Assembly: GCF_013364155.1 (NCBI RefSeq)
Contig: NZ_CP054916.1
Span: 682,001 to 746,000, forward strand
DNA from: Streptomyces sp. NA02950
GTDB lineage: Bacteria > Actinomycetota > Actinomycetes > Streptomycetales > Streptomycetaceae
Direction: 5' to 3'
DNA length: 64,000 nucleotides
Both the position numbers and the translations under genes were made by a program. Within the stretch, counting starts at the first letter, position 1. Every line of letters begins with the position of its first letter. Shown here one piece after another: positions 1-46,456 of the stretch. Under the pieces are notes generated by a model. The model was not told the DNA's origin. It saw only the letters and a program-made list of their open reading frames with translations, and did not search any database.

Positions 1-455
1 AGGGAGGGCGGGGATCGGGGGCTGGCGCTCGCTGCCGCGCCGTACGGCCGCCACGAACCGCCGCACCGGTACGGGCTCACCGCGCAGCGGTACCCGTACC
101 ACCCGGTCCCGGTGGCCGTCCGGTACCGGCGCCGGCCGCGGCAGCAGACAGATTCCGCAGCCGTGGGCGACCAGGGCCGCGATCGCGGACCCGTCGGCCG
201 CACTGTGCCTCGCCCGCGGGGGTGAACCCGGCGGCCGCAGGCGGCCAGCAGCAGTTGATGCTGATCGGCCGTCCCGTCCGGGTACCCGGCCAGATCCGCG
301 CGGGCCTCCTCCCAGCGCGCGAACAGCGCGTCGGCATGCCCGAGCAGCGCCAGTGCCGCGGGGGTGAGCCGTACCCGGCGGCCCGTCGGCTCCAACAGCT
401 CCAGGCCGATCCGCGCCGCGAGTTGGCGCAGCTGCGCTCGGGGTCGGGCACCGCC
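1..455 (-). pseudogene. LysR-family regulator, truncated and internally deleted
   Basis: Read leftwards from about 455, the minus strand encodes the end of a LysR winged helix (RAQLRQLAARIGLELLEPTG, then RRVRLTPAALALLGHADALF). It then jumps near 215-235 to the last part of an effector domain (SAIAALVAHGCGICLLPRP and VRRFVAAVRRGSERQPP). The first 30-40 residues including the recognition helix are missing, most of the effector domain is missing, and the two pieces lie in different frames. The 3' end lies outside the window. It directly abuts the LysE remnant on the other strand, so the pair was probably a divergent regulator/exporter unit. It is not expected to be functional. Recognition is by motif reading only. 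Confidence 0.6.
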
Positions 456-936
456 GACGGCTGCCGCGCCCTGGTCGCGGTGGTCGGGGGCGCCGCCGTC
501 TCGCGGACCGTCGCCCCGGTGGCGGGCCCGTTGCGCGCCATCGCCGCGGTCATGCTCGGCATGGCGTCGCGGGCCGCCGTACGGGCACCGCGCCACCGGC
601 AACGGGACGACGCGGCCGGCCCGGAGCGGAACCTGCTGGGCCGCCCCGTCCGGGCCTATCTCGCCTTCCTGGTCCTGAGGTTGGTGAACCCCTGGGCGGT
701 CATCTGCTTCTCAGCGCTGGTGCCCGCCGGAGGCGCGGGCACCGGAGCCGGCCCCTCCGTCCCAGCGGTCTTCGTGGCCGCCGTGATCACCGCCTCCGTG
801 AGCCGGCAGCTGTTGCTGGCCGCGGGTGGAGCGCACTGGGCAGGACGCTGACGGCCCACGGGGGCGGGGCGTTACCGCGCTGGTCTCCGCCGCGGTGGTG
901 GCAGCGCCGGCGGTCGGCCTGCTGCTGCCCGGCTGA
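456..936 (+). pseudogene. LysE/RhtB-family exporter, N-terminally truncated and frameshifted
   Basis: The plus strand encodes the C-terminal two thirds of a LysE-type amino-acid exporter: GCRALVAVVGGAAVSRTVAP, a transmembrane segment with LVNPWAVICFSALV (the family's conserved N-P in a helix), and QLLLAAGGA. Translation stops at 849-851. The family-typical ending GVTALVSAAVVAAPAVGLLL continues in another frame and stops at 934-936, so there is a frameshift around 850-868. The first 60 or so residues are absent. An open frame does run from 222 to 851, but its first 80 codons are antisense to the LysR remnant and do not resemble an exporter N-terminus. Inferred to be dead. Confidence 0.6.
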
Positions 937-1024
937 GCCGCCGTCCCGGCCGTCCCGGCCGGGACGTTTTACGAGCGCGCCGTCCGGTAACCCGGTGCCG
1001 TGACAACGAAGAAAGGAGTCACTG

Positions 1025-1483
1025 ATGAGCACCGTGCGGGAGTCCGTCGAGGTTGACGTTCCGCTGAGCACGGCCTACAACCAGTGGACGCAGTTCACCG
1101 AGTTCCCGCGGTTCATGGAAGGCGTGGATCGGGTGACCCAGGTGGACGACCGGCACAACCACTGGTCGACCTCCATCGCCGGTGTGCACCGTGAGTTCGA
1201 CACCGAGATCGTCGACCAGCTCCCCGACGAGCGCATCGCCTGGCGCACGACCTCGGGCGATGTGCGGCAGCAGGGCCTGGTGACATTCCGGCCCCTGGAC
1301 GCGAGCCATACCGAGGTCAATCTGGCCATCGTCTTCGAACCGACCGGGTTGGCGGAGAAGGCCGCGGACATGACCGGGACGCTCGACCGCCGGATCAAGG
1401 GAGATCTGCACCGGTTCAAGGACTTCATCGAACACCGGGGCCAGGAAGAGGGCGGCTGGCGGGGCCGTATCAACCCCGGCTGA
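1025..1483 (+). CDS. SRPBCC-superfamily (polyketide cyclase/START-like) protein
   Basis: 152 aa, preceded by a strong AAAGGAG at 1011-1017. The N-terminal strand 'VRESVEVDVPLSTAYNQWTQ' followed by FTEFPRFMEGV is the hallmark of the SRPBCC/polyketide-cyclase ligand-binding fold. The C-terminus is one long helix (TGTLDRRIKGDLHRFKDFIE) ending in a short Gly/Arg tail. Members bind small hydrophobic ligands in a helix-grip cavity; in actinomycetes this subtype (YNQWTQFTEFPRFMEGV) is common, usually monocistronic and often stress-linked. No signal peptide is visible, so it is cytosolic. The ligand is unknown. A perfect hairpin follows the stop, consistent with a single-gene transcript. Confidence 0.85.
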   Translation: MSTVRESVEVDVPLSTAYNQWTQFTEFPRFMEGVDRVTQVDDRHNHWSTSIAGVHREFDTEIVDQLPDERIAWRTTSGDVRQQGLVTFRPLDASHTEVNLAIVFEPTGLAEKAADMTGTLDRRIKGDLHRFKDFIEHRGQEEGGWRGRINPG

Positions 1484-1524
1484 CTCCCCGGCGTCCGTAC
1501 GGTGACGACGGCAGCCGGGCTGAC

Positions 1525-1556
1525 CGGGAGCCCGCGCGTCAACGCGCGGGCTCCCG
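1525..1556 (+). terminator. Hairpin terminator after the SRPBCC gene
   Basis: A perfect 14-bp GC stem (CGGGAGCCCGCGCG and its complement) encloses a TCAA loop, 42 bp after the SRPBCC stop. There is no U-tract, as is usual for actinomycete terminators. The stem overlaps the last codons of the small minus-strand reading frame and may serve both directions. Confidence 0.75.
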
Positions 1557-1715
1557 TGTGCCCGGACCGGCGGTCGTCGCACTGCTCCCCCGAACGGGGA
1601 TGGCGCGCAGCAAGCGCGGCAGATGCGTCGGCGCGATGTACAGGACCGTCGAGACGCACAACAACGTCCACCCGACGAACCGGACCCAGTGGGTGTGTTC
1701 GTCCTGCGAAGCCAT
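1539..1715 (-). CDS. Small single-pass membrane protein (hypothetical)
   Basis: 58 aa from ATG 1715. A charged start (MASQDEHTHW) leads into one hydrophobic segment (VRFVGWTLLCVSTVLYIAP), followed by a basic, Pro/Gly-rich tail. No convincing Shine-Dalgarno precedes this ATG. In-frame starts further upstream would run into the neighbouring gene. The hydrophobic segment and codon bias favour a real peptide, but the hairpin at its 3' end overlaps the last codons. No family recognised. It could be a chance frame. Confidence 0.35.
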   Translation of the reverse strand: MASQDEHTHWVRFVGWTLLCVSTVLYIAPTHLPRLLRAIPVRGSSATTAGPGTREPAR

Positions 1716-1725
1716 CGAGGAGGAC

Positions 1726-2472
1726 TCACTCGTGAGGGGCGAGTGCGGCAGCCACACGGGCGAGGAGCGCGGCGGGCAGGGCGAACCGGTTGGCGGGGTT
1801 GCGGAAGGAGTACTCACCGTCGTTGATACGGAGACCGGCTACAGGCGTGGTCCAGTGTGCGGGACCCCAGAGGCCCTGGTTTTCCAGGAGGGCACCGGCG
1901 AGCGGTTCGGGGGCTTCGACACCGGTGCGGGCGCGCAACGCGACTGCCAGACGGTCGGCTGCGTGGTCGGGCAGGGCGTCGTCACCGAGTGCGGGCAGCA
2001 GGAGCAGCAGGCGGGCGTGGGCATCGGTGGTGGAGCCACCGGGCAGTGCGTTGTCCGCGGCGGCGACCAGCTCCGGCCAGGACAGGCCGGGGCCCATGAA
2101 GCATCCCTCGTCCCGGGCGAGGAGCACGGCTTCCTCCCAGTCGGGGTGGTGCAGGAGGTAGTCGGTGCCTTCGTCGCCCTCGACGGTGCGGTAGACGACG
2201 TGGAGGCGGTGGCCGGCGGTGAGCGGGATGGTGAAAGCGGGCCAGTCGGCACGCTGGAACAGTCGGTGCTGGAAGTCCCCGGCCGCGTCGTAGTCCGCGC
2301 CGAACAGCAGTTCTTCGGCTTCCTCGCTTTCCGCGCCCTGGGCGCAGTGGGAGAGGTGCCCCAGCCAGAACACGTTCTCGTCCAGGAATTCGGTGCGGTG
2401 GGTGAAGGGACCACCCCCGTAGCCCGGTATCCGGACCGGGTGCAGCTCCGCGCTGGTCGTCATGGAGTTCAT
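1726..2472 (-). CDS. Unrecognised cytosolic protein (248 aa)
   Basis: ATG 2472 is chosen because CAGGAG lies 7 nt upstream; ATGs at 2475 and 2463 are alternatives. The N-terminus contains GYGGGPFTHRTEFLDENVFW and a run of acidic residues. The middle has aromatic-rich motifs (DYLLHHPDWEEAVLLARDEG). The C-terminal half is Leu/Ala-rich and helical (ARLLLLLPALGDDALPDHAA). There is no signal peptide or membrane segment. It lies 88 bp after a second unknown gene on the same strand, itself 36 bp downstream of the CHAT protein gene, so all three may be cotranscribed. Function unknown; a partner or immunity-like role for the CHAT module is only inference from position. Confidence 0.6.
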   Translation of the reverse strand: MNSMTTSAELHPVRIPGYGGGPFTHRTEFLDENVFWLGHLSHCAQGAESEEAEELLFGADYDAAGDFQHRLFQRADWPAFTIPLTAGHRLHVVYRTVEGDEGTDYLLHHPDWEEAVLLARDEGCFMGPGLSWPELVAAADNALPGGSTTDAHARLLLLLPALGDDALPDHAADRLAVALRARTGVEAPEPLAGALLENQGLWGPAHWTTPVAGLRINDGEYSFRNPANRFALPAALLARVAAALAPHE

Positions 2473-2560
2473 CATGCCGCTCCTGCCCCGCGGCCGCGGT
2501 GCGGACGTTCGGGAGCTTCCTCGCCGCGGCCGACCCGGCCCGTCGACCGGCCGCCCGCGT

Positions 2561-3205
2561 TCAGTCCTGGTCGGGACCGCCGAGTTCCGATGCGAGTGTC
2601 CCGGCCCTCTCCGGAGGGCACATCGCGCGCAGGTGGCCGAGCGCCTCGTGGACGCAGAGGGCGGCGTAGTCGGAGGGGAAGAACCCGCGGGAGAGCAGCA
2701 CGTTGAAGACCCGGTGCACTCCCTCGTCGCTGAGCCGCCACACCGCCTTGGCGGCTTCCTGTTTGACCTCCGGCGCACAGGTGTGGCCGAGGAGGTCGGC
2801 GACGCTGGTGAGGTTCCCGACGTTGTCCCCGGTGAAGGCGTCGCGCAGGCACTGGATGACGACGCTGTCGTCGGGGTGGTGGAGGAATACATCGGTCCAA
2901 CTGATGTGCAGCAGCTGCTCGGGGTGTTCCCCGCCGTCGACGTGCGCCCGGTACTCGGGGTCGTCCGGCCAGAGGTACGGCAGCGGGCGGCGGCTCAGGA
3001 ACTCGCTGACGTCGACCCGCCATGGAACCCGGACGGGCATCTCCCTCCACCACTCGCCCGTCCAGCCGGTACCGGGAAGGGTGATCATCCCTTCGCTGTC
3101 GGGCCCGTCCGGTTCCGGCATCCACCGCGCGTCCTCGTGCTCGGGTGCCGGGGGCGAGGTGAGCGGTTCTTCCGTCGGCTTCCTCCGGAAGCGCTTGAAC
3201 AGCAT
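2561..3205 (-). CDS. Unrecognised HEAT-like helical protein (214 aa)
   Basis: Start ATG 3205 has GGAG 5 nt upstream. The N-terminus is basic (MLFKRFRRKP), followed by a Pro/Glu linker and a Trp-rich stretch (GTGWTGEWWREMPVRVPW). The last 110 residues look like stacked amphipathic helices of an ARM/HEAT-like fold (NLTSVADLLGHTCAPEVKQE, AVWRLSDEGVHRVFNVLLSR). It is soluble, with no catalytic motif. The gene sits between the CHAT protease-like gene (36 bp upstream) and another unknown gene, all on the minus strand. A scaffold or adaptor role would suit the fold, but this is inference. Confidence 0.6.
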   Translation of the reverse strand: MLFKRFRRKPTEEPLTSPPAPEHEDARWMPEPDGPDSEGMITLPGTGWTGEWWREMPVRVPWRVDVSEFLSRRPLPYLWPDDPEYRAHVDGGEHPEQLLHISWTDVFLHHPDDSVVIQCLRDAFTGDNVGNLTSVADLLGHTCAPEVKQEAAKAVWRLSDEGVHRVFNVLLSRGFFPSDYAALCVHEALGHLRAMCPPERAGTLASELGGPDQD

Positions 3206-3240
3206 GGGGTCTCCGTAAGGTGTGGTGCGGCCCGGGGCCT

Positions 3241-6200
3241 TCAGGCTCCGACGTGGATATGCGCTGCCCACAGGAACGGGGTCGCCGCCCTGGTGAGGGG
3301 GCCCGGCAGGTCCTGCCCGTCGCGTACGGCGAGGAGTGCGCGATGCAGCGCGTACGCGGCGCGGCGGGTGTCCAGGCCGCCCTCCGCGGTGCGCAGATGG
3401 GCGTAGAAGCGGTCGGCGATGGCGACGCAGAGCCGGTCGTCGACCTCCCAGAGGGTGCCGACGACCCGCGGGAAGCCCGCGACCTGGAAGGCCGAGGCGA
3501 GATGGAGGGCCTCGTCGAGGAAGGCCCCGTGGGTGACGGTCGCGGTGCGGCAGGCCGACAGGTAGGCGAGCTGGGCACGGTCGAGGACGACGGGAGCGAG
3601 GGCGGCGACGGTGAGGGGGTCACGCTCGTGGTCCTGGAGCAGCAGACGGCTGAGGGAGGGGTCCGTGGCATCGCTGTGACCGTGGCAGGCGAAGTGGGCG
3701 ACGGGACAGTCCGGCAGCCGCTTCAGCACATCGGCCTTGACCGGCACGGCCGGATCGGCTCCGCCGTCGAGGGCCACCACATCGGGGAGATGCCGTCGGA
3801 GCACGGCGACTTCCTCGCTCACGTGGTGCAGGCGGCCTCCTCCCGGCATGCCGGGGGTGACGGGCATCGCGACGCCGAGGGCGCGGGGGATCCCGGCCGG
3901 GGAGATGTCCGTGGCGGGGGCGTGTGCGCGGGCGTGGTGGAGTGCGCGGACGCTGGGTGTGTAGGAGGACACCACGCGGTCCATGACCGTACGGGGTGCG
4001 GTGCCGTCCGTGGCCTCGGTGTGGTGGCCGGCGGCGTGCAGCGGTAACAGGCTCAGCAGGCCGCTCGGCACCCACCACAGCCGGGGCCAGGTGTCCGGCT
4101 CCCCCGTCGGCCGGTGCCGGAACTCCAGCCGCTCCAGGACGGGTCCGGCCGCGGCGTCCCACAGCCACTCCATGACCTCGCGCAAGCGGCCCTGGGCCGC
4201 GCGGCGCTCGGTGCTGTCGCTGCCCGCCACCGCTCCGTGCACGGCGCCGTGGAAGGCGTCCGTCCTGGCGATCACGCTCTCGAAATCGAGTGCGGGGAGC
4301 GGGACGGCCGACACACCGTCGCGGGTCAGCAGGAGGGCGTGGCTGCCGTACGTACTGACGTTGAGCACCACCAGCGGGCCGTGCTCCGCCGCGGTCATCA
4401 GGTCTTCCGGGGTGGGCGGCAGGGCGAAGGAGGCGAATCCGCGGCGGGCGCGGATCTCGGCGAGGGTGGCGGCGAACTCGGCGGCGAGAGCCGGTCGGTT
4501 CAGCGCGGCGGGCGGCTCCGTTGCCGGGGCACCGGAGTGGGCCGGGGAGCCGCCGTCGGCGGGCAGCTGGGGCACGAGGAGCGCGGGCGGCGGCTGGTCG
4601 AGGCGGTCTCGCAGGTCGAGGAATCGGGCGGCGAGCCCGGGGTGGCGCCTGCGGAGTTCCGACAGGTCGTCCCGGGCGTCGAGCGCCTGGCCGATGAGGA
4701 CGGTCCGTCCGGTCTCCAGAAGCCGCAGGGCGCGCAGGGCGGGGTCCTGGGTGCCGGACCGCCGCGGAGCGGAGAGGACGAGAGCCGCGGCATCACCGGC
4801 CAGTCGGCGGGCATCGCCGAGCGCGTGCTGCTGGTCGCCGCGTGCCAGGCGCCGGTGGCTGACCTCGGGGAGCAGCAGGACCGCCGCTTCCAGGACGTCG
4901 GCGGCGAGGGCGGGGTCCGTGGGGGCGATGAGTTCGGCCGCGCTCCGTGCGGCGCCGACGCGGTGGGAGGCCGGTGCGGACTCCGCTCCCGCCGCCTCGG
5001 TGAAGGCGGCGATGGCCGCCTCCAGGTCCGCCTCGGCCGCGAAGTGCTCGTACCGGGTCCTCAGCGCGCCTCCGAGGTTGCCGAGGAACTTCGCCCGTTC
5101 GGGATGGTGGGCGGGGATGAGTGCGACGCTGTCCCGGCCGACGGTGACGGCCTCGTCCACGTCCGGTCTCCCGCCGGTCCGTCGGAACCGCAGGGTCAGG
5201 GCGTAGGCGAGGTTCGAGAGGTAGCGCGGGAGCTCGGTGTCCCGCCGCGGGGTGAGCTGGACGGCGCGTTGGGCCGCGTCGATGGCGTCGTCGAGGTCGG
5301 ACGGCAGATCGGTCTGCTGAAAACGTGCCACCAGCGCCGCCGCGAGGTTGGCCAGACGTGACGTCAACTGGTCCTCGTGGACGGTCGCCGCCACCGCCTC
5401 GCGGCAGAACCGGACCGCTTCCTCCAGGTCGGCGTCGTGGTCCGTGCGCTCGTAACGGGTCCACAGCAGCATGCCGAGGAAGGCGAGCGGACTGGCACGG
5501 TCCACGGGGTCGCGGGACGCGGCTGCCAGGTCCGCGCGCGAGAGGGCGATCGCCTCGCCCAGGTCGTCCATGGATCCGGTGTGCCGGAACCGTACGTACA
5601 GCGTCTCGATCAGGACGACGGACTGACGGAGGGCGCCACGGGTTCCCGTGGGGAGGAGCGGGAGGGAGTCGCGGCCGACCGCGATCGCCTCGTCCAGGTC
5701 GGCGAGTTCTCCCACCTGTTCGAAGCGGCTGCGCAGGGCCTGGCAGAAGGTGGTGAGACAGGCGCCCCTGACCTCGGGCGGGGCGGACGAGGGCGTGGCC
5801 TCGGCGGCTTCGCGGGAGCGGGTGACCGCCTCGTCGAGGAAGGTCGTACGGCCGCTGTGCAGCGACCGCAGAGCGAGGGTGTTCACCAGGTGGGCCAGGT
5901 ATCCGGGGCGCTCGGGATGGTGAAGGGGGGCCAGGTCGATCGCCTCGCGGCCCAGCACGAGCGCCTCCTCGATGTCCGCGTCCGGGCCTCCCCGCTGGTA
6001 CCGGAGTGTCAGCCGGTTCATGAGATTGATGAGGAACGGTGGCCGCACGGTGGGGTGGGTCACGGTCAGTGCGACGGCCTCGCGCCCGAGGGCGATGGAT
6101 TCTTCCAGGTCCGCGTGCGCACCGTCGCGTTCGTACCGCAGCAGCAGGGCGTTGCCCGCGTCGGTCAGGCAGGCCAGCTGATGGACGCCGGTGGCCGGTT

Positions 6201-6882
6201 CGGCCCTGACGGCCCGTCGGGCGAAGGAGACGGCCTCGTCCAGGGCCTCCGGTCGCCCGGTTCTGAGGTGGAGCGAGGTCAGCCCGTCCGTGAGATTGGC
6301 CAGAGCTCCCTTGCGTCCGGAGGACCGGGGCTGGCTCAGTGCGAGCGCGGTACGTGCCAGGTCGACCGACTCTTCCAGGTCCGCCAGGGATCCCGTCCAC
6401 TGGTATCGCCGGTGCAGCGCGGAGCCCAGGTTGGTGAGCGAGGCCTCGACGTCGGAGGAGCCGGTGGGCGGGAGCGCGACGGCCTCGCGGCCCAGTGCGA
6501 TGGCCTGTTCGAGATCGGCGGTCCGCCCGCTCTGCTCGAAGCGCTCGGTGAGGACGGCGCCGAGGACCGAGAGATAGCCCGCGTTGGCGGGGGCGAGGGC
6601 GACGGCCTCCCGCCCGGCGGCCACGGCCTCGTCCAGATCCGCCAGGGCGCCGGTCCGCGCGTTGCGCGCATGCAGCATGACCTGAAGGTCGTACAGCAGA
6701 CTCGCACGGTCCGCATGGCGCCGCGGAGCCCGCGCCACCGCCGTGCGGTAGGCGGCAACAGCCTCGTCCAAGTCCGCCGTGGCGCCGGTCCGGTCGAATC
6801 GCTCCCATGCCTCGCTCCCGCGCCGAACCCAGTCCTCCGGCCCCTTGCGGCCGTGACCACCGCTGAACGACTTCCACCGCAT
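3241..6882 (-). CDS. TPR-repeat CHAT-domain (caspase-like protease) protein
   Basis: 1213 aa, ATG 6882 with GAGGTG just upstream. About 14 TPR-like repeats of the pattern 'DLDEAVAAGREAVAL' span roughly residues 20-640. After a helical linker comes a C-terminal CHAT domain (about 830-1213), a caspase/separase relative. The dyad is visible: His1067 in HFACHG and Cys1111 in YLSACRTA. The flanking strands TYGSHALLLTRDGV, WWVPSGLLSLLPLHAAG and FPRVVGTLWEVDD are also conserved. Full length, with no signal peptide, so cytosolic. In bacteria TPR-CHAT proteins act as regulated proteases in conflict systems, where the repeats sense a partner or signal. It is divergent by 77 bp from a three-gene operon. 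Substrate unknown. One of the most conserved calls here; the system assignment is inferred. Confidence 0.9.
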   Translation of the reverse strand: MRWKSFSGGHGRKGPEDWVRRGSEAWERFDRTGATADLDEAVAAYRTAVARAPRRHADRASLLYDLQVMLHARNARTGALADLDEAVAAGREAVALAPANAGYLSVLGAVLTERFEQSGRTADLEQAIALGREAVALPPTGSSDVEASLTNLGSALHRRYQWTGSLADLEESVDLARTALALSQPRSSGRKGALANLTDGLTSLHLRTGRPEALDEAVSFARRAVRAEPATGVHQLACLTDAGNALLLRYERDGAHADLEESIALGREAVALTVTHPTVRPPFLINLMNRLTLRYQRGGPDADIEEALVLGREAIDLAPLHHPERPGYLAHLVNTLALRSLHSGRTTFLDEAVTRSREAAEATPSSAPPEVRGACLTTFCQALRSRFEQVGELADLDEAIAVGRDSLPLLPTGTRGALRQSVVLIETLYVRFRHTGSMDDLGEAIALSRADLAAASRDPVDRASPLAFLGMLLWTRYERTDHDADLEEAVRFCREAVAATVHEDQLTSRLANLAAALVARFQQTDLPSDLDDAIDAAQRAVQLTPRRDTELPRYLSNLAYALTLRFRRTGGRPDVDEAVTVGRDSVALIPAHHPERAKFLGNLGGALRTRYEHFAAEADLEAAIAAFTEAAGAESAPASHRVGAARSAAELIAPTDPALAADVLEAAVLLLPEVSHRRLARGDQQHALGDARRLAGDAAALVLSAPRRSGTQDPALRALRLLETGRTVLIGQALDARDDLSELRRRHPGLAARFLDLRDRLDQPPPALLVPQLPADGGSPAHSGAPATEPPAALNRPALAAEFAATLAEIRARRGFASFALPPTPEDLMTAAEHGPLVVLNVSTYGSHALLLTRDGVSAVPLPALDFESVIARTDAFHGAVHGAVAGSDSTERRAAQGRLREVMEWLWDAAAGPVLERLEFRHRPTGEPDTWPRLWWVPSGLLSLLPLHAAGHHTEATDGTAPRTVMDRVVSSYTPSVRALHHARAHAPATDISPAGIPRALGVAMPVTPGMPGGGRLHHVSEEVAVLRRHLPDVVALDGGADPAVPVKADVLKRLPDCPVAHFACHGHSDATDPSLSRLLLQDHERDPLTVAALAPVVLDRAQLAYLSACRTATVTHGAFLDEALHLASAFQVAGFPRVVGTLWEVDDRLCVAIADRFYAHLRTAEGGLDTRRAAYALHRALLAVRDGQDLPGPLTRAATPFLWAAHIHVGA

Positions 6883-6959
6883 TCGGCACCTCGTCCCCTC
6901 GTACCCATGTCACACTGCATGTTGGAGCCTGGTGTGCGCTGCATCACTATAGGGAGGAC
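6883..6959. promoter_or_regulatory. Bidirectional promoter region between the CHAT gene and its divergent operon
   Basis: 77 bp separate the two start codons. On the plus strand TTGGAG (6922-6927) and CACTAT (6945-6950) are 17 bp apart and resemble a -35/-10 pair. AGGGAGG at 6951-6957 is the ribosome-binding site for the plus gene but sits very close to that -10, so transcription may start further upstream. No clear palindromic operator is seen. The shared region implies co-regulation of the two arms. Confidence 0.4.
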
Positions 6960-6962
6960 GTG

Positions 6963-7418
6963 TTGAGTGACGGCCCCGGCCGGCCGGCCGTTCGCACAGC
7001 CAACGCCGTGGCGTACGTCTGCCAGAACCTGGAACAGCTCCGATCACAGCTGCTCGAGGGGCAGTTGGGCGACGACGGACCGCTGGATCGGCTCCTCGCG
7101 GCGGTGCGTTCGGGCGGGGAGGTCGACGGGGCGCTGGAGCATCTGCATCTGCTGCTCCAGGCGGACGGCGACGCCCGCGGTGTGCACGCGCTCGACGGCG
7201 CGGAGGACGGCGCCCGCGGACTCGGGGACGGTGGGCTGCCCGGCGGCCCGGGTCTGCACCAGGTGACCGGGCTGACCCGCGGCGCGGCACCGGGCCCGGC
7301 CGACATCGTCTACTTGTGTCCGGCGCACCGGTGTGCGCGTTCCTGGGTTCCGCACCCGACCGTGCCTCTGCCGCGCTGTGCCATCACCGGCCAACCGCTG
7401 CGACGGGACCGTCTGTAG
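6963..7418 (+). CDS. Small Cys/His protein, first gene of the CHAT-divergent operon
   Basis: About 151 aa. TTG at 6963 is preferred because AGGGAGG ends 5 nt upstream; GTG 6960 is the alternative, with only 2 nt spacing. The N-terminal half is helical (VCQNLEQLRSQLLEGQLGDD, then GALEHLHLLLQADGD). The last 35 residues hold a potential metal site, YLCPAHRCARSW, plus a later His and Cys (C-x2-H-x-C...H...C), and end in a basic tail. No family recognised with certainty. Its stop is 2 bp from the next start, so translation is probably coupled. Position opposite a TPR-CHAT gene recalls the small associated proteins of computationally described CHAT/TPR conflict systems, but homology was not shown. 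Confidence 0.6.
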   Translation: MSDGPGRPAVRTANAVAYVCQNLEQLRSQLLEGQLGDDGPLDRLLAAVRSGGEVDGALEHLHLLLQADGDARGVHALDGAEDGARGLGDGGLPGGPGLHQVTGLTRGAAPGPADIVYLCPAHRCARSWVPHPTVPLPRCAITGQPLRRDRL

Positions 7419-7420
7419 CC

Positions 7421-8458
7421 ATGGGCGGTCTGCTCTCCGAACTCGGGAAGAAGCTCGCCGAACGCTGGCTGTCACTCCTCGTCCTGCCGGGCGCCCTCTA
7501 CCTCGCCGTCCTGGGCACGGCGGCGCTGCTCGGCCATGGCCACGCCGTCGACCCGCACCAGCTGACCGAGCGGATCTCGGCGGCGGCGGAGGCCCGGGCG
7601 GTCGGCACCTTCGGCGGGCAGGTCGTGGTCCTCGGCGCCGTGCTGGCCGGCTCCGCCGGGGCGGGGCTCGCCGCGCAGGCGCTGGGCTCACTCGTGGAGC
7701 GCATCTGCCTGGGCGCCGGCTGGCGCGCCTGGCCACGCCCGTTGCGCGCCCCGGCCCGGCTGCGCGTCGAGCGCCGTCGGCAACGCTGGACCACAGCCGC
7801 CCAGGGCTACCACCGGCTGCTGACGGAGGCTCGGCGCGCCCGCGGCCGGGGCGAGCGCGGCGACCCCACCGCGCGGTGGGCGGCCCACCTCGCCATGACC
7901 CGTGTCGCGGCGGAACTCCCCGACCGCCCCACCTGGAGCGGCGATCGCATCCACAGCGTGTCCGCCCGTCTGGAGCGGGTCCACCGGCTCGATCTGGCCA
8001 CGGTGTGGCCGTACTTGTGGCTCATCCTGCCCGAACCGACCCGTGCGGAGATCTCCGCGGCACGCCAGTCCCTGTACCGTGGCAGCACCCTCACCGCATG
8101 GGCCCTGCTGTACCTTCCGGTCGCCGGACGGTGGTGGCCCGCCGCTCTCATCAGCCTCACCCTGGCCCTCGCGGGCCGGTCCCGCACCCGTGCCGCCGCG
8201 GACAACTACGCCCTGCTGCTGGAGGCCGCGGCCCGGCTGCACGGCGGCGAGCTCGCCCTGCGCCTCGGCCTCACCTCCGCGCTCCCGGGGCCCGCCGCAC
8301 CCCCGGGGCCCGCCGTCCTGCCGGGTCCCGCATGCCCGCCCGACGACGCGGACGATGTCGACGGCACCGGGCCCACGCCCCTCACGCCGGACGTCGGCGA
8401 CGCTCTCACGCGCGCGTTGTACGTACCGCCTCCCGCACCACCGCCCGCTGCCGACTAG
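7421..8458 (+). CDS. Multi-pass membrane protein of the CHAT-divergent operon
   Basis: 345 aa from ATG 7421, two bases after the upstream stop. Hydrophobic segments appear near residues 15-36 (WLSLLVLPGALYLAVLGTAA), 62-85 (GQVVVLGAVLAGSAGAGLAA) and 225-255 (ALLYLPVAGRWWPAALISLT). Between them is a long basic, Arg-rich cytoplasmic-type region. The last 60 residues are a Pro/Ala/Asp-rich tail. No transporter or enzyme motif is visible. In a conflict-type operon a membrane component could be the effector or an anchor, but here that is only positional inference. The gene is followed after 31 bp by the zinc-finger gene on the same strand. Confidence 0.65.
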   Translation: MGGLLSELGKKLAERWLSLLVLPGALYLAVLGTAALLGHGHAVDPHQLTERISAAAEARAVGTFGGQVVVLGAVLAGSAGAGLAAQALGSLVERICLGAGWRAWPRPLRAPARLRVERRRQRWTTAAQGYHRLLTEARRARGRGERGDPTARWAAHLAMTRVAAELPDRPTWSGDRIHSVSARLERVHRLDLATVWPYLWLILPEPTRAEISAARQSLYRGSTLTAWALLYLPVAGRWWPAALISLTLALAGRSRTRAAADNYALLLEAAARLHGGELALRLGLTSALPGPAAPPGPAVLPGPACPPDDADDVDGTGPTPLTPDVGDALTRALYVPPPAPPPAAD

Positions 8459-8489
8459 CTCACCCCTGACCGAAGGACGAAGGATCCCC

Positions 8490-9314
8490 ATGGTGTCGCG
8501 ATGGACACAGCAGTTGCTGGACGAGGCGACCGCACTGATGTCGGCGCATCGCTACCGATCGGCCCTGGAACGGCTGCTGGTCGTCTTCGACGTCTACCCC
8601 GACCTGCCGGAGGCACGGCAACTGGCCAGCGCATTGATCTACGCCGGGGCCCGTACGACGAGTGAAGCCGCTCCCGACGAACAGCTCGGTACCAGGCAGC
8701 TGTTCGACACCCGCCTGAACGCGGTGTTCTGCGCCTGTGAAGCGCCGGGATGCGGGGTGTCCTGGGTGAGCGCCCACCACCTGCTGGACGGCCACAGGGG
8801 CGGCGCGATGATCAGCAATCCGATGGGCGGATGCTGCGAGGACTGCGGTGTCACCTTGTGCAAACGCCATGCGCGATCCGCCGGGCACGGCCTGGACTGT
8901 CCGCGCTGCGGCCGGCAGCTGGACCACGCTCCCGCGCCGAACGGACGGCGGCAGTCCGCCCAGACCGAGCGCCTCAACAAGCGGCTGGTCCATGTGATCG
9001 TGCTGGTCGAAGGGAAGAAGCCGCCGTCGGCGGAGTTCATGACAGGGCTCTGCGAGAGCGTGATGCCCGACGTGTTCGAGGGCAGTCCCCGGATCACCGG
9101 CAATCACTACCGGAAATTCACGGCGGACGAAGGCCGGACGGAGGCCGTGTTCCACGCCGGAGCGATGGAGTCGGCCTACCTCACGGACGACTACGACCTG
9201 CGGATCTACCCCGGCAAACAAGCCGGCCGACGCGGCCGGCGCTGGGTGATCGCCAAGGTCTTCGAGAACCGGCCCAAGCACATCGACCCCGAGCACCCGT
9301 CGGCGGGCCCATGA
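8490..9314 (+). CDS. TPR-like/zinc-finger protein, last gene of the CHAT-divergent operon
   Basis: 274 aa, ATG 8490 with GAAGGA 5-6 nt upstream. Residues 1-50 resemble a TPR pair (ALMSAHRYRSALERLLVVFD). Two Cys clusters follow: C81/C83/C88, then a C116-x2-C119-x4-C124-x2-H127-x5-H133-x3-C137-x2-C140 array (CCEDCGVTLCKRHARSAGHG). The array matches the spacing of cross-brace or B-box-like zinc fingers. The C-terminal 130 residues form an alpha/beta domain (LVHVIVLVEGKKPPSAEFMT; RRWVIAKVFENRP) with no recognised family. It is soluble. Zinc-finger proteins beside CHAT proteases may act as adaptors or substrates; the role is inferred. Confidence 0.65.
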   Translation: MVSRWTQQLLDEATALMSAHRYRSALERLLVVFDVYPDLPEARQLASALIYAGARTTSEAAPDEQLGTRQLFDTRLNAVFCACEAPGCGVSWVSAHHLLDGHRGGAMISNPMGGCCEDCGVTLCKRHARSAGHGLDCPRCGRQLDHAPAPNGRRQSAQTERLNKRLVHVIVLVEGKKPPSAEFMTGLCESVMPDVFEGSPRITGNHYRKFTADEGRTEAVFHAGAMESAYLTDDYDLRIYPGKQAGRRGRRWVIAKVFENRPKHIDPEHPSAGP

Positions 9315-9332
9315 CCGGCCGGTGCCCGCGTC

Positions 9333-10385
9333 TCACGCGGACCGGGCCGCGCTGCCGACCGTGTGCATATGCCGGAGCCCCTGCCGGTACGAGTCGAGCA
9401 GCCCGGTCTGGGCGTACGACAGCCCCAGGGTGCGGCAGTGCTGTTGGACCAGAGGCTGTGCGAGCTTCAGATGGGGCCGGGGCAGGTGGGGGAAGAGGTG
9501 GTGTTCGATCTGGTAGTTCAGCCCGCCGAGCAGCCAGTCCGTGAGCGGCCCGCCGCGGACGTTCCGCGAGGTCAGGACCTGGCGGCGCAGATGGCCCCAG
9601 CGCTCGCCCGCCGGATCGGGCATCTCCATGCCCTTGTGGTTGGGCGCGAAGGCCATTCCCAGGTGGAGCCCGAACAGCGCCTGGTGCAGCAGGGCGAATA
9701 CGACGGCCTTGCCCACCGGCAGGCAGGTCAGCAGCAGAGCGCCATAACCGATCGCGTGCAGCGCCAGCAGCACCCCTTCGACGGCCCGTTCACGCACCGG
9801 CTGCCGCCGCAGGTCCTGGACACTGCTCACCTTCAGCGCGAGCCCTTCGAGGAGCAGCATCGGGAAGAACAGCCGGGCCTGGTGGCGGGTCACCCAGCGG
9901 GCGAACCCCCGGCGTACGGCGGCCTGTTCCGCTGTCCACACCAGGGCGCCGACACCGACGTCGGGGTCCTTCTCGATGTGATTGGGGTTGGCGTGATGCC
10001 GGTTGTGCTTGTCGTTCCACCACGCGTAGCTCATACCCAGCAGCAGGTTGCCGTGGATGAGTCCGATGACCCGGTTCGCCCGGCGGCCGACGGTGATCTG
10101 GGCGTGCCCGGCGTCGTGGCCGACGAAGGCGGTGCGGGCGGACAGGACCGCGAGCGGCGGGGCGAGCAGCAGTGTCCACCAGGTGTCCCCGGCGAGGACG
10201 ATCGCTGTCACCACGGCGGCCAGGGCGAGGGCGTTCACGGTGATCATCCGTGTGTACCAGCCTCGGCGGCGCTCCAGCAGCCCCTGGGTCCTGACCGTCC
10301 GCAGCAGGGGAGCGAATTCACTCCCTGGCGGCGCGGTGCCGCCGACAGGTGCGGTGGGAACGGACGGCGCGGTGGCCTGGGACAT
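9333..10385 (-). CDS. Membrane fatty-acid (acyl-lipid/acyl-CoA) desaturase
   Basis: 350 aa from ATG 10385, with GGAG 7 nt upstream. All three histidine boxes of the diiron desaturase family are present: GHDAGH, DKHNRHHANPNH and NYQIEHHLFP. Two hydrophobic hairpins bracket box 1 and lie before box 3 (ITVNALALAAVVTAIVLAG; VEGVLLALHAIGYGALLLTC). These enzymes use O2 and electrons from ferredoxin or cytochrome b5-type donors to insert a cis double bond into membrane acyl chains. No dedicated electron-transfer partner lies beside it. It is convergent with the zinc-finger gene, only 18 bp apart. Regiospecificity cannot be read from sequence. Confidence 0.9.
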   Translation of the reverse strand: MSQATAPSVPTAPVGGTAPPGSEFAPLLRTVRTQGLLERRRGWYTRMITVNALALAAVVTAIVLAGDTWWTLLLAPPLAVLSARTAFVGHDAGHAQITVGRRANRVIGLIHGNLLLGMSYAWWNDKHNRHHANPNHIEKDPDVGVGALVWTAEQAAVRRGFARWVTRHQARLFFPMLLLEGLALKVSSVQDLRRQPVRERAVEGVLLALHAIGYGALLLTCLPVGKAVVFALLHQALFGLHLGMAFAPNHKGMEMPDPAGERWGHLRRQVLTSRNVRGGPLTDWLLGGLNYQIEHHLFPHLPRPHLKLAQPLVQQHCRTLGLSYAQTGLLDSYRQGLRHMHTVGSAARSA

Positions 10386-10486
10386 GGAGGGCTCCGGTAC
10401 TGATGCGGTCGTAACGCTCTGACCTGCCCAAACGTAGGGACTGGGGCCCCACGGCACCATGGCGGCAGCACCCCGGCCGCACGGGG

Positions 10487-10556
10487 GCCAGCCCCCGGGT
10501 TCCGCAGGGGGGCTGGCTACACCTGGCCGGTCCGGGCGCCCCGACCGGCCTGGTGT
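10487..10556 (-). terminator. Double hairpin after the LacI/sugar operon
   Basis: Two adjacent inverted repeats lie between the LacI stop (10579) and the desaturase start. The first is a perfect 10-bp stem, GCCAGCCCCC (10487-10496) with its complement at 10508-10517. The second has a 14-bp stem with one mismatch (10519-10532 with 10543-10556). They are best read as the terminator of the leftward sugar operon. Confidence 0.65.
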
Positions 10557-10578
10557 GTGTGGGCCCCGGCTCAGCCGT

Positions 10579-11574
10579 TCAGGAAGGAGCTGGGCCGGTA
10601 CTGGCGCGGATCACCAGCTCCGGGTCGAACAGCAGCTCACCGGTGGGGACATCGCGATTGCTGACCAGGGCCAGCACCGTGCGGCCGACTTCCAGCGACA
10701 GCCGGTCGGCGGGCTGACGCACCGTGGTGAGCGGGGGGTCCACAAACTCGGTGATCATCGACCCGTCGTATCCCACCACCGAGATGTCGCCGGGCACCGA
10801 GCGGCCCTGGCGTCGCACCCCGCGGATGGCGCCGAGCGCCATGTAGTCACTCGCCGCGACGATCGCGGTGGCACCGAGGCCGAGGAGGGTGGTGGCGGCC
10901 GACTGGCCGCCCTCGACGGTGTACGACTGCCGGATCACCCAGCGCTCGGGGTCCTCGATGCCGCGCTTCGCCATGGCCGTCAGGAAACCCTCGACCCGCT
11001 TGTCGGCCGGGTGGTTGCCCACCGGGCCGGAGGCCATGCCGATCCTGCGGTGTCCGAACCGGTGGAGGTGGTCGACGGCCAGTTCGGCGGCCAGGAGGTC
11101 ATCGGTGGAGAAGACCGGCGCGGGCACTCCGTCCGCGAACTCCCCGTTGATGGCCACGTATGGGATGCGACGCGTCCGCAGCATCCCGTAGGTCTCGAGG
11201 TCCGCTCCCTCGACGGTGTTCGACGCGGAGAGGAACACCACCGCCGCGATGCCCTTGTCCACCAGGGAGGCGATGAAGTCGCGCTCCTGGACACCGCCGG
11301 GGAACGCGGGACACACCACCGTCTTCAGGCCGTGGGGTGCGAGCGAGGACTCGATCCGCTCGGCCACGTCCGCGAAGAACGGATTGGAGACGTGCTCGGT
11401 GAGCAGCGCGACCAGCTGGCCTTGGGTCGGGCGTTCGTAGCCGAGCTCGGCCATGGCCTGCTCGACGGTGTCGCGGGTCTTCTTGGAGACGCCCGGCCGC
11501 CGGTTGATCACACGGCTGACGGTCGCCTCGCTGACCCCTGCCCGCGTGGCGACCTCGGTGATCCCCACCTTCAC
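10579..11574 (-). CDS. LacI-family transcriptional repressor of the sugar operon
   Basis: 331 aa, starting at GTG 11574, which overlaps the upstream gene's TGA in a GTGA. The N-terminal HTH (VATRAGVSEATVSRVINRRP, then GVSKKTRD) and hinge region are classical LacI. Residues 60-330 form the periplasmic-binding-protein-like effector domain, with LTEHVSNPFFADVAERIESS and DYMALGAIRGVRRQGRSVPG. It is the last gene of a five-gene operon (binding protein, two permeases, glycosidase, repressor), so it presumably senses a sugar derived from the glycosidase substrate and autoregulates the operon. A candidate operator lies at 16509-16528. Confidence 0.92.
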   Translation of the reverse strand: MKVGITEVATRAGVSEATVSRVINRRPGVSKKTRDTVEQAMAELGYERPTQGQLVALLTEHVSNPFFADVAERIESSLAPHGLKTVVCPAFPGGVQERDFIASLVDKGIAAVVFLSASNTVEGADLETYGMLRTRRIPYVAINGEFADGVPAPVFSTDDLLAAELAVDHLHRFGHRRIGMASGPVGNHPADKRVEGFLTAMAKRGIEDPERWVIRQSYTVEGGQSAATTLLGLGATAIVAASDYMALGAIRGVRRQGRSVPGDISVVGYDGSMITEFVDPPLTTVRQPADRLSLEVGRTVLALVSNRDVPTGELLFDPELVIRASTGPAPS

Positions 11575-13337
11575 TGTGTGCCGCCTTCCCTGATCCGGAG
11601 TGTGGCCAGTCCCATGCTCGGCACGGGGACCGTGTGCACGCCGGGCGTGAGCACACGACGGCACCGGTCGATGATACGGCCACGGGGGTCGTGCACCGTG
11701 ATGTCCGCGGCGCGGGAGTCCTCCCCCACCGCCACGGTGAGCCGGTCCGCCGGGGTTCCGTTGACCAGCACGATCTCGTGGTGCCCGGCGGGCCGCAGCG
11801 GCACGACGCGATCGCTGTGCACATCGATGACGCACACCCCGTCGGCGGTCGAACGGACCAGCGTGTAGAGCTCGTCGGGTCGCCCGGGTTCGACCGTACC
11901 GTCCAGCAGTTGCGGACGCAGACGGCTCCATTCGGCCAGCCAGAACGCGATCGCCTCACGGTGTCCCGCGGGAAGCCGGTCCAGCCGCACCGAGAGCTGC
12001 GGCACGGAGTGGAAGGTGCCGATGAGCTGGCGCACCGCGGCCTCGACCGGGGCGGCCGGATCCCACAGCAGCATGTCGGAGTGGACCGCGCCACCGACGG
12101 TGAGCAGTGAGGTGTCGATGGTGCGGACCCGGTTGGCGGTGGCGTCCGCCGGGCAGTCGAAGGAGCGCATCATATTGCCGTACGGGGCCATACCGGGACC
12201 GGTGTACGGCTGGCGCAGTTCCAGCAGCACGCCGGGGCGGACGGTCTGGAGCGCGCACCTCAGGTCGGCCAGGAGGAGGGCCATCGCCACGCCGACATCC
12301 CCGGCGCCGTCGCCCGCGTACACCATGGCCTGGTCGAGGAAGTCCACCTTCAGACCGTCGAGTCCGTGGTCGCGCACCAGGCGTACGCAACTCTCGACGA
12401 TCCGGGAGCGCACTTCCGGGTGGCGGGGGTCCAGGACGGCTGCGCCGGGGACCGTGGCGGGGCGCGTGGCATACGGTGCCCAGCGTGCGTGGCATGCGGC
12501 CCGTGGGCCCAGCAGGAGCGGGGCGATCCAGACCATGTAGCGCAGACCGTATCCGCGCACCCGGCCGACATGAGCCGTGAAATCGGGGAACTTGGCCTCG
12601 TCCGGCTCCCAGTCGCCGCAGCCCGCGTAGCCGCGACCGTGGCCGTGGCGTTGCCAGCCGTCGTCCAGGATCAGAACTCCGCAGCCGAGTTCGGCGGCCA
12701 GGCGGGCCTGGGTCTCCAGGGAAACCGCGTCCACCTGCTGGTTGAAGGCGTACCAGGTGGAGTAGACGGGTGTGCGTGCGCTGTCGGGCACCGGCAGCGC
12801 CGTCACCTCGGCCGTGAACCAGGCGCGCAGGACGCGCAGCGCCGCGGCGACCGACTCCGCGCGCGGTACGAGCAGCAACCGGTGCGGGCCGTCCGACGCG
12901 GGCAGATGGACATGGACGACATAGGTGTCGTTCTCCTCCGACACCCCGAACCGCAGGGTGGTCTCCGGGACCGGATCGACGGCCGCGAAGGTCAGCAGAG
13001 TGGCGCCGGAGTGGTCGTAGAGGCACCCCGCGGCGTGTCCGTCGACCAGGGAGGCCACCGATCGCCCCTCCCAGTCGGCGAGCAGGGTGCGATGCCATCC
13101 CACGCGCGGATGCCAGTATCCGGCGGCGTCCCCGAGCGGTACGGAGAACCGGACCTCGATGGGGGCGCCGTCGGCCCGCAGCCACAGGGTGCTGGGGCCC
13201 CCGGACTCCTCGACAAGGTCCCAGGTGACGTCGGCGCCGGGGGCCGGCACTGCGATGCTCACTCCGTCGAGCAGCGGCTCACGGGCCGCGGGAGCAAGCT
13301 CCGCGGTGGTGACGGCCTGGTGCGTCGCGTGGGACAT
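11571..13337 (-). CDS. GH36-like glycoside hydrolase (alpha-galactosidase type)
   Basis: 588 aa from ATG 13337 (GGAG 5 nt upstream, overlapping the end of the permease gene). The N-terminal 190 residues form a beta-sandwich. The TIM barrel carries clan-D motifs: CGVLILDDGWQ, YMVWIAPLLLGP, GLKVDFLDQ with the likely nucleophile Asp332, and DCPADATANR with an acid/base Asp near 394-398. The C-terminal beta domain starts near residue 480. No signal peptide, so it cleaves imported oligosaccharides in the cytosol, fed by the adjacent ABC importer. GH36 members are mostly alpha-galactosidases or alpha-N-acetylgalactosaminidases; the exact sugar cannot be fixed here. Confidence 0.8.
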   Translation of the reverse strand: MSHATHQAVTTAELAPAAREPLLDGVSIAVPAPGADVTWDLVEESGGPSTLWLRADGAPIEVRFSVPLGDAAGYWHPRVGWHRTLLADWEGRSVASLVDGHAAGCLYDHSGATLLTFAAVDPVPETTLRFGVSEENDTYVVHVHLPASDGPHRLLLVPRAESVAAALRVLRAWFTAEVTALPVPDSARTPVYSTWYAFNQQVDAVSLETQARLAAELGCGVLILDDGWQRHGHGRGYAGCGDWEPDEAKFPDFTAHVGRVRGYGLRYMVWIAPLLLGPRAACHARWAPYATRPATVPGAAVLDPRHPEVRSRIVESCVRLVRDHGLDGLKVDFLDQAMVYAGDGAGDVGVAMALLLADLRCALQTVRPGVLLELRQPYTGPGMAPYGNMMRSFDCPADATANRVRTIDTSLLTVGGAVHSDMLLWDPAAPVEAAVRQLIGTFHSVPQLSVRLDRLPAGHREAIAFWLAEWSRLRPQLLDGTVEPGRPDELYTLVRSTADGVCVIDVHSDRVVPLRPAGHHEIVLVNGTPADRLTVAVGEDSRAADITVHDPRGRIIDRCRRVLTPGVHTVPVPSMGLATLRIREGGTQ

Positions 13338-13339
13338 GG

Positions 13340-14167
13340 TCACTCCTTCACGGCACCGGCCAGCAGGCCGGAGACAAAGTGGCGTTGCAGCACGAGGAAG
13401 ACGACGGCCATCGGCACCGCGGCGACGGCGGTACCGGCGAGGATGGCCCCGTAGTCGGTGTTGTTCAGGCCCTGGAGAGCGGCGAGGGCCACGGGGATGG
13501 TGAACGACTGGCTGTCGCGCAGCACGATCAGCGGCCAGATGAAGTCGTTCCACTGGTAGAGGAAGAGGAAGATGGCGAGTGCCGCGAGGGCGGGTTTCAT
13601 CGGCGGGAGGACCACCTTCCAGAACAGCCGCAGCTCGCCGCAGCCGTCCATCCGGGCCGAGTCGAGCAGTTCGTCGGGGACGGCGGCCATCGACTGGCGC
13701 ATCAGGAAGATACCGAACGGCAGGGCCAGATTCGGCATCATCACGGCCTGGTAGGTGTTCAGCCACTCCAGCTCCGCCATCAGCTTGAACAGCGGGATCA
13801 AGGTCACCTGGACCGGGATCACCAGCCCCAGCATCAGCAGTCCGAACAGCGCTTCGCGGCCCTTGAAGCGGTACTTGGCGAAGCCGTATCCGGCGAGCGT
13901 GCACACCGCGCCGGCGCACAGCGTGTACATCGCCGCTATCAGCGTGGAGTTGAGCACCACGCGGCCGAAGGAGGCGGTCCGCTGGAGGGTGTCGAGGTTC
14001 TCCGGCAGGTGGCCGCCGGGCAGCAGGGGCGGAGGGCTGTTGAAGATCTCGCGGCTGCTGTGGGTACTGGCGACGATCAGCCAGTAGAGGGGGATGACCA
14101 CCGCGGCCAGGGTGATGGCGAGCGAGGAGGTCAGCAGGATGCCGTTGCGGCGCTGTGCGGGTCTCAC
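13340..14167 (-). CDS. Carbohydrate ABC transporter permease (MalG type)
   Basis: 275 aa, GTG 14167 overlapping the previous stop (GTGA). Six hydrophobic segments are visible, starting with SSLAITLAAVVIPLYWLIVA. The binding-protein-dependent permease EAA loop is recognisable (DELLDSARMDGCGELRLFWK, then VVLPPMKPALAALAIFLFLY). It pairs with the MalF-type protein upstream to form the membrane channel. No ATPase gene is in the operon, so a shared MsiK-type ATPase encoded elsewhere is expected, as is usual for sugar importers in Streptomyces. Confidence 0.93.
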   Translation of the reverse strand: MRPAQRRNGILLTSSLAITLAAVVIPLYWLIVASTHSSREIFNSPPPLLPGGHLPENLDTLQRTASFGRVVLNSTLIAAMYTLCAGAVCTLAGYGFAKYRFKGREALFGLLMLGLVIPVQVTLIPLFKLMAELEWLNTYQAVMMPNLALPFGIFLMRQSMAAVPDELLDSARMDGCGELRLFWKVVLPPMKPALAALAIFLFLYQWNDFIWPLIVLRDSQSFTIPVALAALQGLNNTDYGAILAGTAVAAVPMAVVFLVLQRHFVSGLLAGAVKE

Positions 14168-35544: not shown

Positions 35545-35604
35545 TGGATCCGACGCACCAACCGATGGTCAAGAATTCGCCGCGAAGACGAGGGGTGCCT
35601 CCCC

Positions 35605-45556: not shown

Positions 45557-46456
45557 TCAGGCGGCGGCCGGGGTGTAGTGGCCGGCCTCGTCGCCTTCGA
45601 GGACGTAAGAGCGCTCGCCGTCCACGCCGACCGGGGCATCACCCGCGACGGTCACCCGGTGCAGCAGGCGCGGCAGGTCGCCGTAGTCGTCGGGGGCGTA
45701 GTGCTGGGTGATGCGGTTGTCGAAGACCACCACATCCCCCGGGGACCAGGCGATCCGCACGATGTTCTCCGGGCGGATGACATAGGACTGGAAGATCCGC
45801 AGCAGATCACGGGACTCGGATGGGCCGAGGCCGAGGAAGCTCTGCGCGAAGCCGCCGATGAACAGTCCGCGCTCGCCGCTCTCGGGGTGGACACGGACCA
45901 CGGGGTGGGCGGTCCGGTACTTCCGGGAGACGAACCGCTTGCGGTGCTCGGCCGCCTTCTCGTTCCGGGGCGCGGCGTAGTCGTAGTCGTTGGTGTGCAC
46001 GGCCCACAGCTTGTCGGCCAGCTCGCGCAGCGGCTGGGGCAGGTCCTGGTAAGCGGCGCCCGCGTTGGCGATGAGCGTGGTGCCGCCGTAGGGCGGGACC
46101 ACGATGCCGCGCAGGGTGGACACCTTCGGGGGCGTACGGACGAAGGTGACGTCCGTGTGCCAGTGGTTGGCGCGGATGCCCTCCTCGGCGTCGACCGGCA
46201 GGATGCTGGGCTGCCCCTCGACGGACGGCACCGTGGGGTGCGCGGTGGTCAGCTCGCCGAAGAGGGAGGCGAAGCGGAGCTGGGCGGCGTCGTCCAGGTG
46301 CTGGTCACGGAAGATGAGCGCCTTGTGTTCCAGGAGCGAGGAGTTGATGTCCGAGACGAGCGCGGGGTCGAGGTCGTCGGAGAGTGTGACGCCGAGGACT
46401 TCGGCGCCGATCCGGCCGCCGATCTTTCGGACGTCGAATCCGGTGCTGGTCGTCAT
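45557..46456 (-). CDS. TauD/TfdA-family Fe(II)/2-oxoglutarate dioxygenase
   Basis: 299 aa, ATG 46456. The iron-binding facial triad is visible: HWHTDVTF (HxD) and a distal His in NRITQHYAPDDYG, followed by the 2-oxoglutarate-binding Arg in RLLHRVTVAG. The N-terminus FDVRKIGGRIGAEVLGVTLS is typical of taurine/alkylsulfatase-type dioxygenases. These hydroxylate the carbon bearing the sulfonate or sulfate ester, releasing sulfite or sulfate. It is the last gene of an organosulfur operon, 27 bp after the ferredoxin. Substrate (taurine, alkylsulfonate or alkyl sulfate) is not decidable from sequence. Confidence 0.9.
   Translation of the reverse strand: MTTSTGFDVRKIGGRIGAEVLGVTLSDDLDPALVSDINSSLLEHKALIFRDQHLDDAAQLRFASLFGELTTAHPTVPSVEGQPSILPVDAEEGIRANHWHTDVTFVRTPPKVSTLRGIVVPPYGGTTLIANAGAAYQDLPQPLRELADKLWAVHTNDYDYAAPRNEKAAEHRKRFVSRKYRTAHPVVRVHPESGERGLFIGGFAQSFLGLGPSESRDLLRIFQSYVIRPENIVRIAWSPGDVVVFDNRITQHYAPDDYGDLPRLLHRVTVAGDAPVGVDGERSYVLEGDEAGHYTPAAA

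Follow-up and report, generated by a model that had tools for sequence, protein, structure and literature searches.

A tetratricopeptide repeat-CHAT gene of Streptomyces sp. NA02950 belongs to a recurrent actinobacterial three-gene module with a small cysteine protein and a predicted membrane protein

This study concerns a locus within a stretch of 64,000 nucleotides, hereafter the window, which covers positions 682001-746000 of a 9.6 Mb contig (NZ_CP054916.1) in the 9.77 Mb genome of Streptomyces sp. NA02950. At the locus, a gene for a protein with tetratricopeptide repeats (TPR) and a CHAT domain (P0001) is divergent from an operon encoding a small protein (P0002), a membrane protein (P0003) and a zinc-finger protein (P0004), and two further genes (P0005, P0006) follow the CHAT gene. 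A conserved core of three genes is well supported, consisting of the genes for the TPR-CHAT protein, the small cysteine protein and the membrane protein, for which four transmembrane (TM) helices are predicted. The closest relatives of the window's proteins are from Streptomyces, and the genus samples were drawn within this, the window's own genus. Genes were called with a purpose-made codon-bias caller, which misses the P0002 gene; this gene is backed instead by its relatives and by a ratio of nonsynonymous to synonymous substitution rates (dN/dS) of 0.26. Between the window and the copy in Streptomyces radiopugnans, dN/dS lies at 0.26-0.43 for the CHAT gene, P0002, P0003, P0004 and P0005, which marks all of them, including the small P0002, as constrained genes. 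With P0002 starting at GTG 6960, the operon is separated from the CHAT gene by 77 bp; with a start at TTG 6963, which lines up with that of the S. radiopugnans copy, the distance is 80 bp. The features are listed in Table 1.

Table 1. Features of the TPR-CHAT locus, in positions of the window.
Feature	Position	Strand	Basis or remark
TPR-CHAT protein P0001, 1213 aa, caspase-like protease (predicted activity)	3241..6882	-	PF12770, 7zoq alignment, TPR count
P0001 TPR array, residues 33-653	4924..6786	-	13 clear units of 45 aa plus a degenerate one; varies more than any other part of the protein
P0001 CHAT domain, residues 902-1212	3247..4179	-	PF12770, E 3.8e-41
P0001 catalytic His1067 codon	3682..3684	-	kept in 45/45 partnered CHAT domains; invariant in 31 aligned proteins
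P0001 catalytic Cys1111 codon	3550..3552	-	kept in 45/45 partnered CHAT domains; invariant in 31 aligned proteins
Gap between divergent CHAT gene and operon	6883..6959	.	sequence
P0002, small protein	6963..7418	+	relatives, dN/dS
P0003, predicted four-TM membrane protein	7421..8458	+	hydropathy, family comparison
P0003 loop motif, residues 166-210 (RPTWSGDR ... WPYLW)	7916..8050	+	family conservation
P0004, zinc-finger protein, accessory gene of the window's subtype	8490..9314	+	relatives, alignment
P0004 Cys/His region, residues 81-140	8730..8909	+	21-sequence alignment
P0005, protein after CHAT	2561..3205	-	kept with CHAT in S. radiopugnans
P0006, second gene after CHAT	1726-2475		

P0001 is a CHAT peptidase by profile and by its His/Cys dyad, and protease activity is predicted; the profile score of 141.9 bits compares with a curated cut-off of 24 for PF12770. 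The original prediction, made from the DNA sequence before any database search, had described a 1213-aa protein with about 14 TPR repeats, an intact dyad at His1067 and Cys1111 and a three-gene operon facing it across 77 bp, and its coordinates and these features proved right. A region of P0001 aligns with the TPR-CHAT chain of Craspase (7zoq, E 1.1e-5), the only solved chain matched, and the TPR-S sensor domain PF20308 reached 22.4 bits, under its curated cut-off of 27.6. Across the family, the TPR part is the most variable (mean pairwise identity 0.26) and the CHAT domain the least variable part of the protein (0.43), a pattern to be expected of TPRs that encounter changing ligands. Elsewhere, one Streptomyces genome carries three tandem CHAT genes (L125, 8050-19357) with no P0003 relative by profile, and a 216-aa gene without a Pfam match lies between two of them.

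The two smaller core proteins showed no convincing relationship to described families, in keeping with the original prediction, which had matched none of the partners to described components of TPR-CHAT conflict systems. Neither they nor P0004 matched a family in Pfam or NCBIfam under E 0.1, and profile searches of the three proteins against the PDB gave nothing under E 0.04. When relatives were searched against Pfam, 31 P0002-like proteins touched two families and 82 P0003-like proteins five, in each case with one member per family and with best E values of 0.016 and 0.012, respectively, and these matches are regarded as chance. P0002 consists of a first half of low similarity, which looks helical on inspection of the sequence, followed by a C-P-x3-C ... 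P-x-C arrangement; this C-terminal stretch is zinc-ribbon-like (Cys119, Pro120, Cys124, Cys139), with Cys119, Pro120 and Cys139 invariant among 31 members.

In P0003, an N-terminal stretch with the kept motif LGxKLAERW leads into TM1, which a short loop joins to TM2; a long basic loop, two more hydrophobic segments and a variable tail follow. Four hydrophobic segments are predicted for the family, of which at least two are clear. The long loop contains on average 22 Lys/Arg in the family and should, by the positive-inside rule, face the cytosol. The best-kept parts are the N-terminus with TM1 (mean pairwise identity 0.58) and the loop motif (0.56). A profile-profile comparison connects P0003 over 275 columns, with a probability of 99.5%, to a wider unnamed actinobacterial four-TM family (PTRLGN ... 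RYGxDAV ... WPRL), whose named relatives are called ‘hypothetical protein’, ‘uncharacterized protein’ or ‘integral membrane protein’ among the best 120 of 287 listed. An assignment of P0003 to the SLATT-type effectors was considered and not adopted. Two P0003 relatives of 530-532 aa (P0092 and P0100) have an extra C-terminal part with more hydrophobic stretches by eye; at two other loci (L160, 5657-7108; L161, 9421-11013), P0003-like proteins have a long extra C-terminal part that appears SAF-like by eye, with CHAT profile matches nearby.

The recurrence of the core was assessed in a sample of 150 Streptomyces genomes and in a class sample of 246 genomes from 103 genera. P0003 was matched in 35 of the 150 Streptomyces genomes, some of which hold several copies, and after merging of split matches this gave 42 loci besides the window, 36 of them taken as longer stretches and the other six being partial matches. 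A CHAT profile match was present at 32 of the 36 loci, and at two more (L051, L054) the TPR part of a CHAT relative runs off the contig, which brings the loci with a TPR-CHAT gene to 34. The CHAT profile was built from these same loci, excluding the contig-cut gene of L051; the CHAT model of Pfam, which is independent of them, recovers the gene at 12 of the loci in addition to the window. A P0002-like gene lies directly upstream of P0003 in 35 of the 36 loci, as judged with a profile built from 29 of them. In the class sample, P0003 was matched in 22 genomes from 9 of the 103 genera, with 27 loci not counted before. Among these, 17 were strong (E below 1e-20) and 10 weak, and CHAT accompanied 16 of the 17 strong loci (in pieces at L152, at a contig end at L156). 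P0002 was found at 11 of them, and at L145, which would make twelve, it lies next to the second piece of a split P0003. Viewed from the side of CHAT, 20 further CHAT-centred stretches contained a P0003 relative in six cases, all weak. P0003 relatives also occur on 10 plasmid records, and in the two records examined a CHAT domain-containing protein adjoins hypothetical proteins.

This association exceeds what the abundance of CHAT genes would produce. None of 14 control stretches of 20 kb each, taken from 14 of the genomes at round-number positions chosen by hand and not at random, contained CHAT, and the 50 CHAT matches counted in 12 genomes put the chance of a CHAT-P0003 adjacency, by our arithmetic, below one percent. 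The two proteins have also diverged together. Their pairwise distances across 44 loci correlate with r 0.53, a value reached in none of 2000 shuffles, and in a tree built quickly from 73 CHAT domains the presence of a strong P0003 partner requires 10 changes as opposed to a shuffled mean of 19.3, with none of 500 shuffles as low; neither set of shuffles takes near-copies into account. The pairing is thus old and was mostly, though not perfectly, inherited together, and both catalytic residues are retained throughout the partnered CHAT domains (Table 1). The original prediction had named two outcomes that would tell against it, namely that related genomes have the CHAT gene and the operon in unrelated contexts, or that the operon proteins fall in well-studied unrelated families. 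Since CHAT and the first two operon genes co-occur across actinobacteria and no described family was found, its own refutation test fails for these genes.

We found no description of the three-gene module in the open-licence literature of PubMed Central (PMC), a search in which supplementary tables were not covered and a mention there is possible. Three known systems resemble it in part. Csx29, the protease of Craspase (type III-E CRISPR), likewise combines TPR repeats with a CHAT domain at the C-terminus that carries the His/Cys dyad; however, the NCBIfam Csx29 model gives P0001 only 50 bits against a cut-off of 300, and the partners in the window are a small cysteine protein and a membrane protein. 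No gene of the size of the Cas7-11 effector lies beside P0001, the largest other open reading frame in window positions 1-14000 being 782 aa, and no CRISPR array search was made. In the two-gene EACC1-caspase system, a caspase-superfamily peptidase is linked to a membrane component; the system is common in actinobacteria and comprises several domain types (Kaur et al., 2020; PMC7159879). The module shares this pairing and its actinobacterial setting. In EACC1-caspase systems, however, the membrane component carries only one TM helix, and the caspase domain lies at the N-terminus, ahead of a variable C-terminal part (Kaur et al., 2020), whereas P0003 has four predicted TM helices (at least two clear) and the CHAT domain of P0001 is C-terminal (902-1212 of 1213), behind the TPRs. 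The third system, the bacterial gasdermins with their proteases, is taken up below.

That a TPR-CHAT gene keeps its place next to the genes for a small protein and a membrane protein suggests a switch that works by proteolysis at the membrane. The reading we prefer, tentatively and as one that may well be wrong, is that the module is a membrane-tethered caspase-like proteolytic switch. The TPR-CHAT protein would be a cytosolic caspase-like protease whose variable TPR superhelix serves as a sensor or substrate receptor, P0002 would act as an adaptor, and P0003 would anchor the complex at the membrane via its conserved, presumably cytosolic motif. A trigger met by the TPR part would render the CHAT site active at the membrane, where it would cut a nearby protein, most likely one of its two co-encoded partners, and the cut would lead to a membrane change or to the release of a signal. 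P0004 might be an extra regulator or client acquired by few lineages. The only solved TPR-CHAT protein matched by P0001 is CRISPR-associated, yet Streptomyces genomes hold several each, and since the fixed membrane and small partners provide candidates for anchor and substrate, the role of caspase-like proteins in multicellular bacteria becomes directly testable.

Several observations weigh against this proteolytic switch. In the P0002 family, the fourth metal ligand is not conserved, which makes zinc binding uncertain, and TM3 and TM4 exceed the hydropathy threshold in only three of six P0003-family proteins examined and not in P0003 itself, so that its four TM helices are a prediction. The linkage is also incomplete: two of the 36 longer Streptomyces loci (L060, L083) have P0003 without CHAT in the stretch, and among the six partial matches CHAT was found at one, 8.4 kb away, and at none of the other five, two of which are at contig ends. 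Conversely, for 14 CHAT domains of the 73-member tree no P0003 relative lies within 6.5 kb. The wider four-TM family, although similar to P0003 by profile, is more divergent, and at the 10 weak class loci CHAT is near in six and a P0002-like gene upstream of P0003 in none.

A possible, if doubtful, alternative is that the module serves envelope or developmental signalling, with P0003 sensing the state of the membrane, P0002 relaying it and CHAT cutting a regulator encoded elsewhere, as in regulated proteolysis during hyphal growth, and without any role in conflict. It agrees with the surroundings of the module. Judged by a list of Pfam matches, the neighbours look like ordinary chromosomal genes, and PADLOC families were no more frequent among them (8 in 108 neighbour proteins) than in controls (11 in 108 proteins), the scan having taken 108 of 178 neighbour and 108 of 176 control proteins, with neighbours taken as the nearest genes outside the core that encode at least 90 aa. 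None of the six locus proteins matched PADLOC-DB 2.0.0 at E up to 1. P0003 had no match in a phage collection, and 34 pattern matches in viral contigs were not confirmed. These results speak mildly against defence and do not bear out the conflict function that the original prediction had proposed for the locus. The wider membrane family of P0003 is likewise also found away from CHAT. On the other hand, the presence of the module within Streptomyces is patchy and its TPR part diverges rapidly, neither of which agrees well with housekeeping. A comparison of insertion sites by flank search yielded scattered desaturase and regulator matches and was not usable.

Somewhat more speculative still, and in our view rather improbable, is an undescribed and widespread actinobacterial cell-death or immune module, in which a TPR-CHAT sensor, held at the membrane via the small adaptor and the new four-TM family, cuts its membrane partner on detecting an invader and disables the hyphal compartment. 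If true, bacteria would possess a counterpart of inflammasome-to-membrane signalling, and the multiple copies in some genomes would differ in specificity.

A lethal special case of the proteolytic switch, which we consider unlikely, resembles the gasdermin systems: CHAT would cut P0003 as a latent pore-forming or membrane-disrupting protein and thereby kill the hyphal compartment, with P0002 keeping P0003 silent until then. Bacterial gasdermins are reportedly paired with caspase-like proteases, and by analogy this precedent, in which a protease is linked to a membrane-acting partner, would suit a protease gene fixed beside a membrane-protein gene. The patchy distribution (35/150 genomes), the genomes with multiple copies and the 10 plasmid records are usual for conflict systems. 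Gasdermin is, however, a soluble fold, whereas P0003 is a predicted integral multi-pass protein without a Pfam match and with a well-kept motif predicted to be cytosolic. Its variable C-terminal tail contains no obvious cutting site, PADLOC matches are not in excess among the neighbours, and some P0003 relatives have no nearby CHAT gene.

It is very unlikely that the module is a toxin-immunity pair in which free CHAT is harmful and P0002 and P0003 are the antidote that holds it at the membrane. In favour of this view, the genes are separately transcribed and mostly divergent: at the 49 loci with a measurable CHAT gene 29 are divergent from P0003, 18 on the same strand and 2 convergent; but CHAT genes without the P0002/P0003 pair occur in the same genomes, so free CHAT is evidently tolerated, and a four-TM protein would be an unusual antidote. 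That the three genes are mere neighbours without joint function is hardly credible, because, although related genomes share gene order by descent, the orientation varies between loci, the flanking genes differ, pairs at 25-60% identity are still linked and the linkage extends to other families of the class.

The zinc-finger gene is an infrequent addition and not part of the core. The C-x2-C-x4-C-x2-H-x5-H-x3-C-x2-C array noted in the original prediction is present in P0004 (Cys116-Cys140), and in a 21-member family Cys116, 119, 124, 137, 140 and His127 are invariant, but its second histidine, His133, is not conserved; an AN1- or RING-like reading of this array was therefore considered but not adopted. 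P0004 matches were found in 4 of the 150 Streptomyces genomes, three of them at only about 30% identity, and CHAT adjoins a P0004 relative in two of six loci fetched from other species (L045, L048), which rules the gene out as a core component. Of the originally predicted unit, it is thus the CHAT, small-protein and membrane-protein genes that occur together much more often than chance would allow, and the zinc-finger gene joins them only occasionally. The other four relatives lie, by eye, between ftsEX/M23 and smpB genes (L049), near FHA-like and kinase genes (L050), and near transposase or integrase genes on two short contigs (L046, L047). In the S. radiopugnans module, P0004 has the same gene order as in the window, whereas in Actinomadura darangshiensis it has a different order and is convergent with a CHAT gene whose product shares 35% identity with P0001; these two arrangements suggest that P0004 has been recruited repeatedly. 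Among 298 genomes of the A. darangshiensis family, four had a P0004 match, one being a 53-residue piece with no CHAT profile match in the surrounding 18.6 kb.

Remote P0004 relatives adjoin a trypsin-like protease (PF13365) and, by motif, a protein kinase. At L085 (8397-12080) and L086 (8422-12223), an operon encodes a small membrane-like protein, a PF13365 protease, a protein kinase by motif and a remote P0004 relative of 398-402 aa, and this four-gene operon is possibly a separate protease signalling system.

Both genes that had been predicted to follow the CHAT gene are there, and one of them appears to belong with it. P0005 is 75% identical in S. radiopugnans, where it also accompanies CHAT, and is therefore probably part of the window's subtype; the other 149 genomes contain a single marginal match (E 6.9e-4). 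P0006, common in Streptomyces and without a link to the module, was rejected as a part of it, as 49 of the 150 genomes have it and among the loci L045-L089 only L080 has a relative.

Further along the window, two very large genes on the forward strand (28129-45423) resemble, from Pfam matches, components of Tc toxin complexes. The first encodes an SpvB/TcdB-type protein of 2471 aa with RHS repeats and the second a TcA-type protein of 3272 aa with a TcB-binding domain. They are followed on the reverse strand (45557-51638) by a run of genes that, by eye from their first residues, resembles a sulfonate/taurine-type uptake and oxidation cluster.

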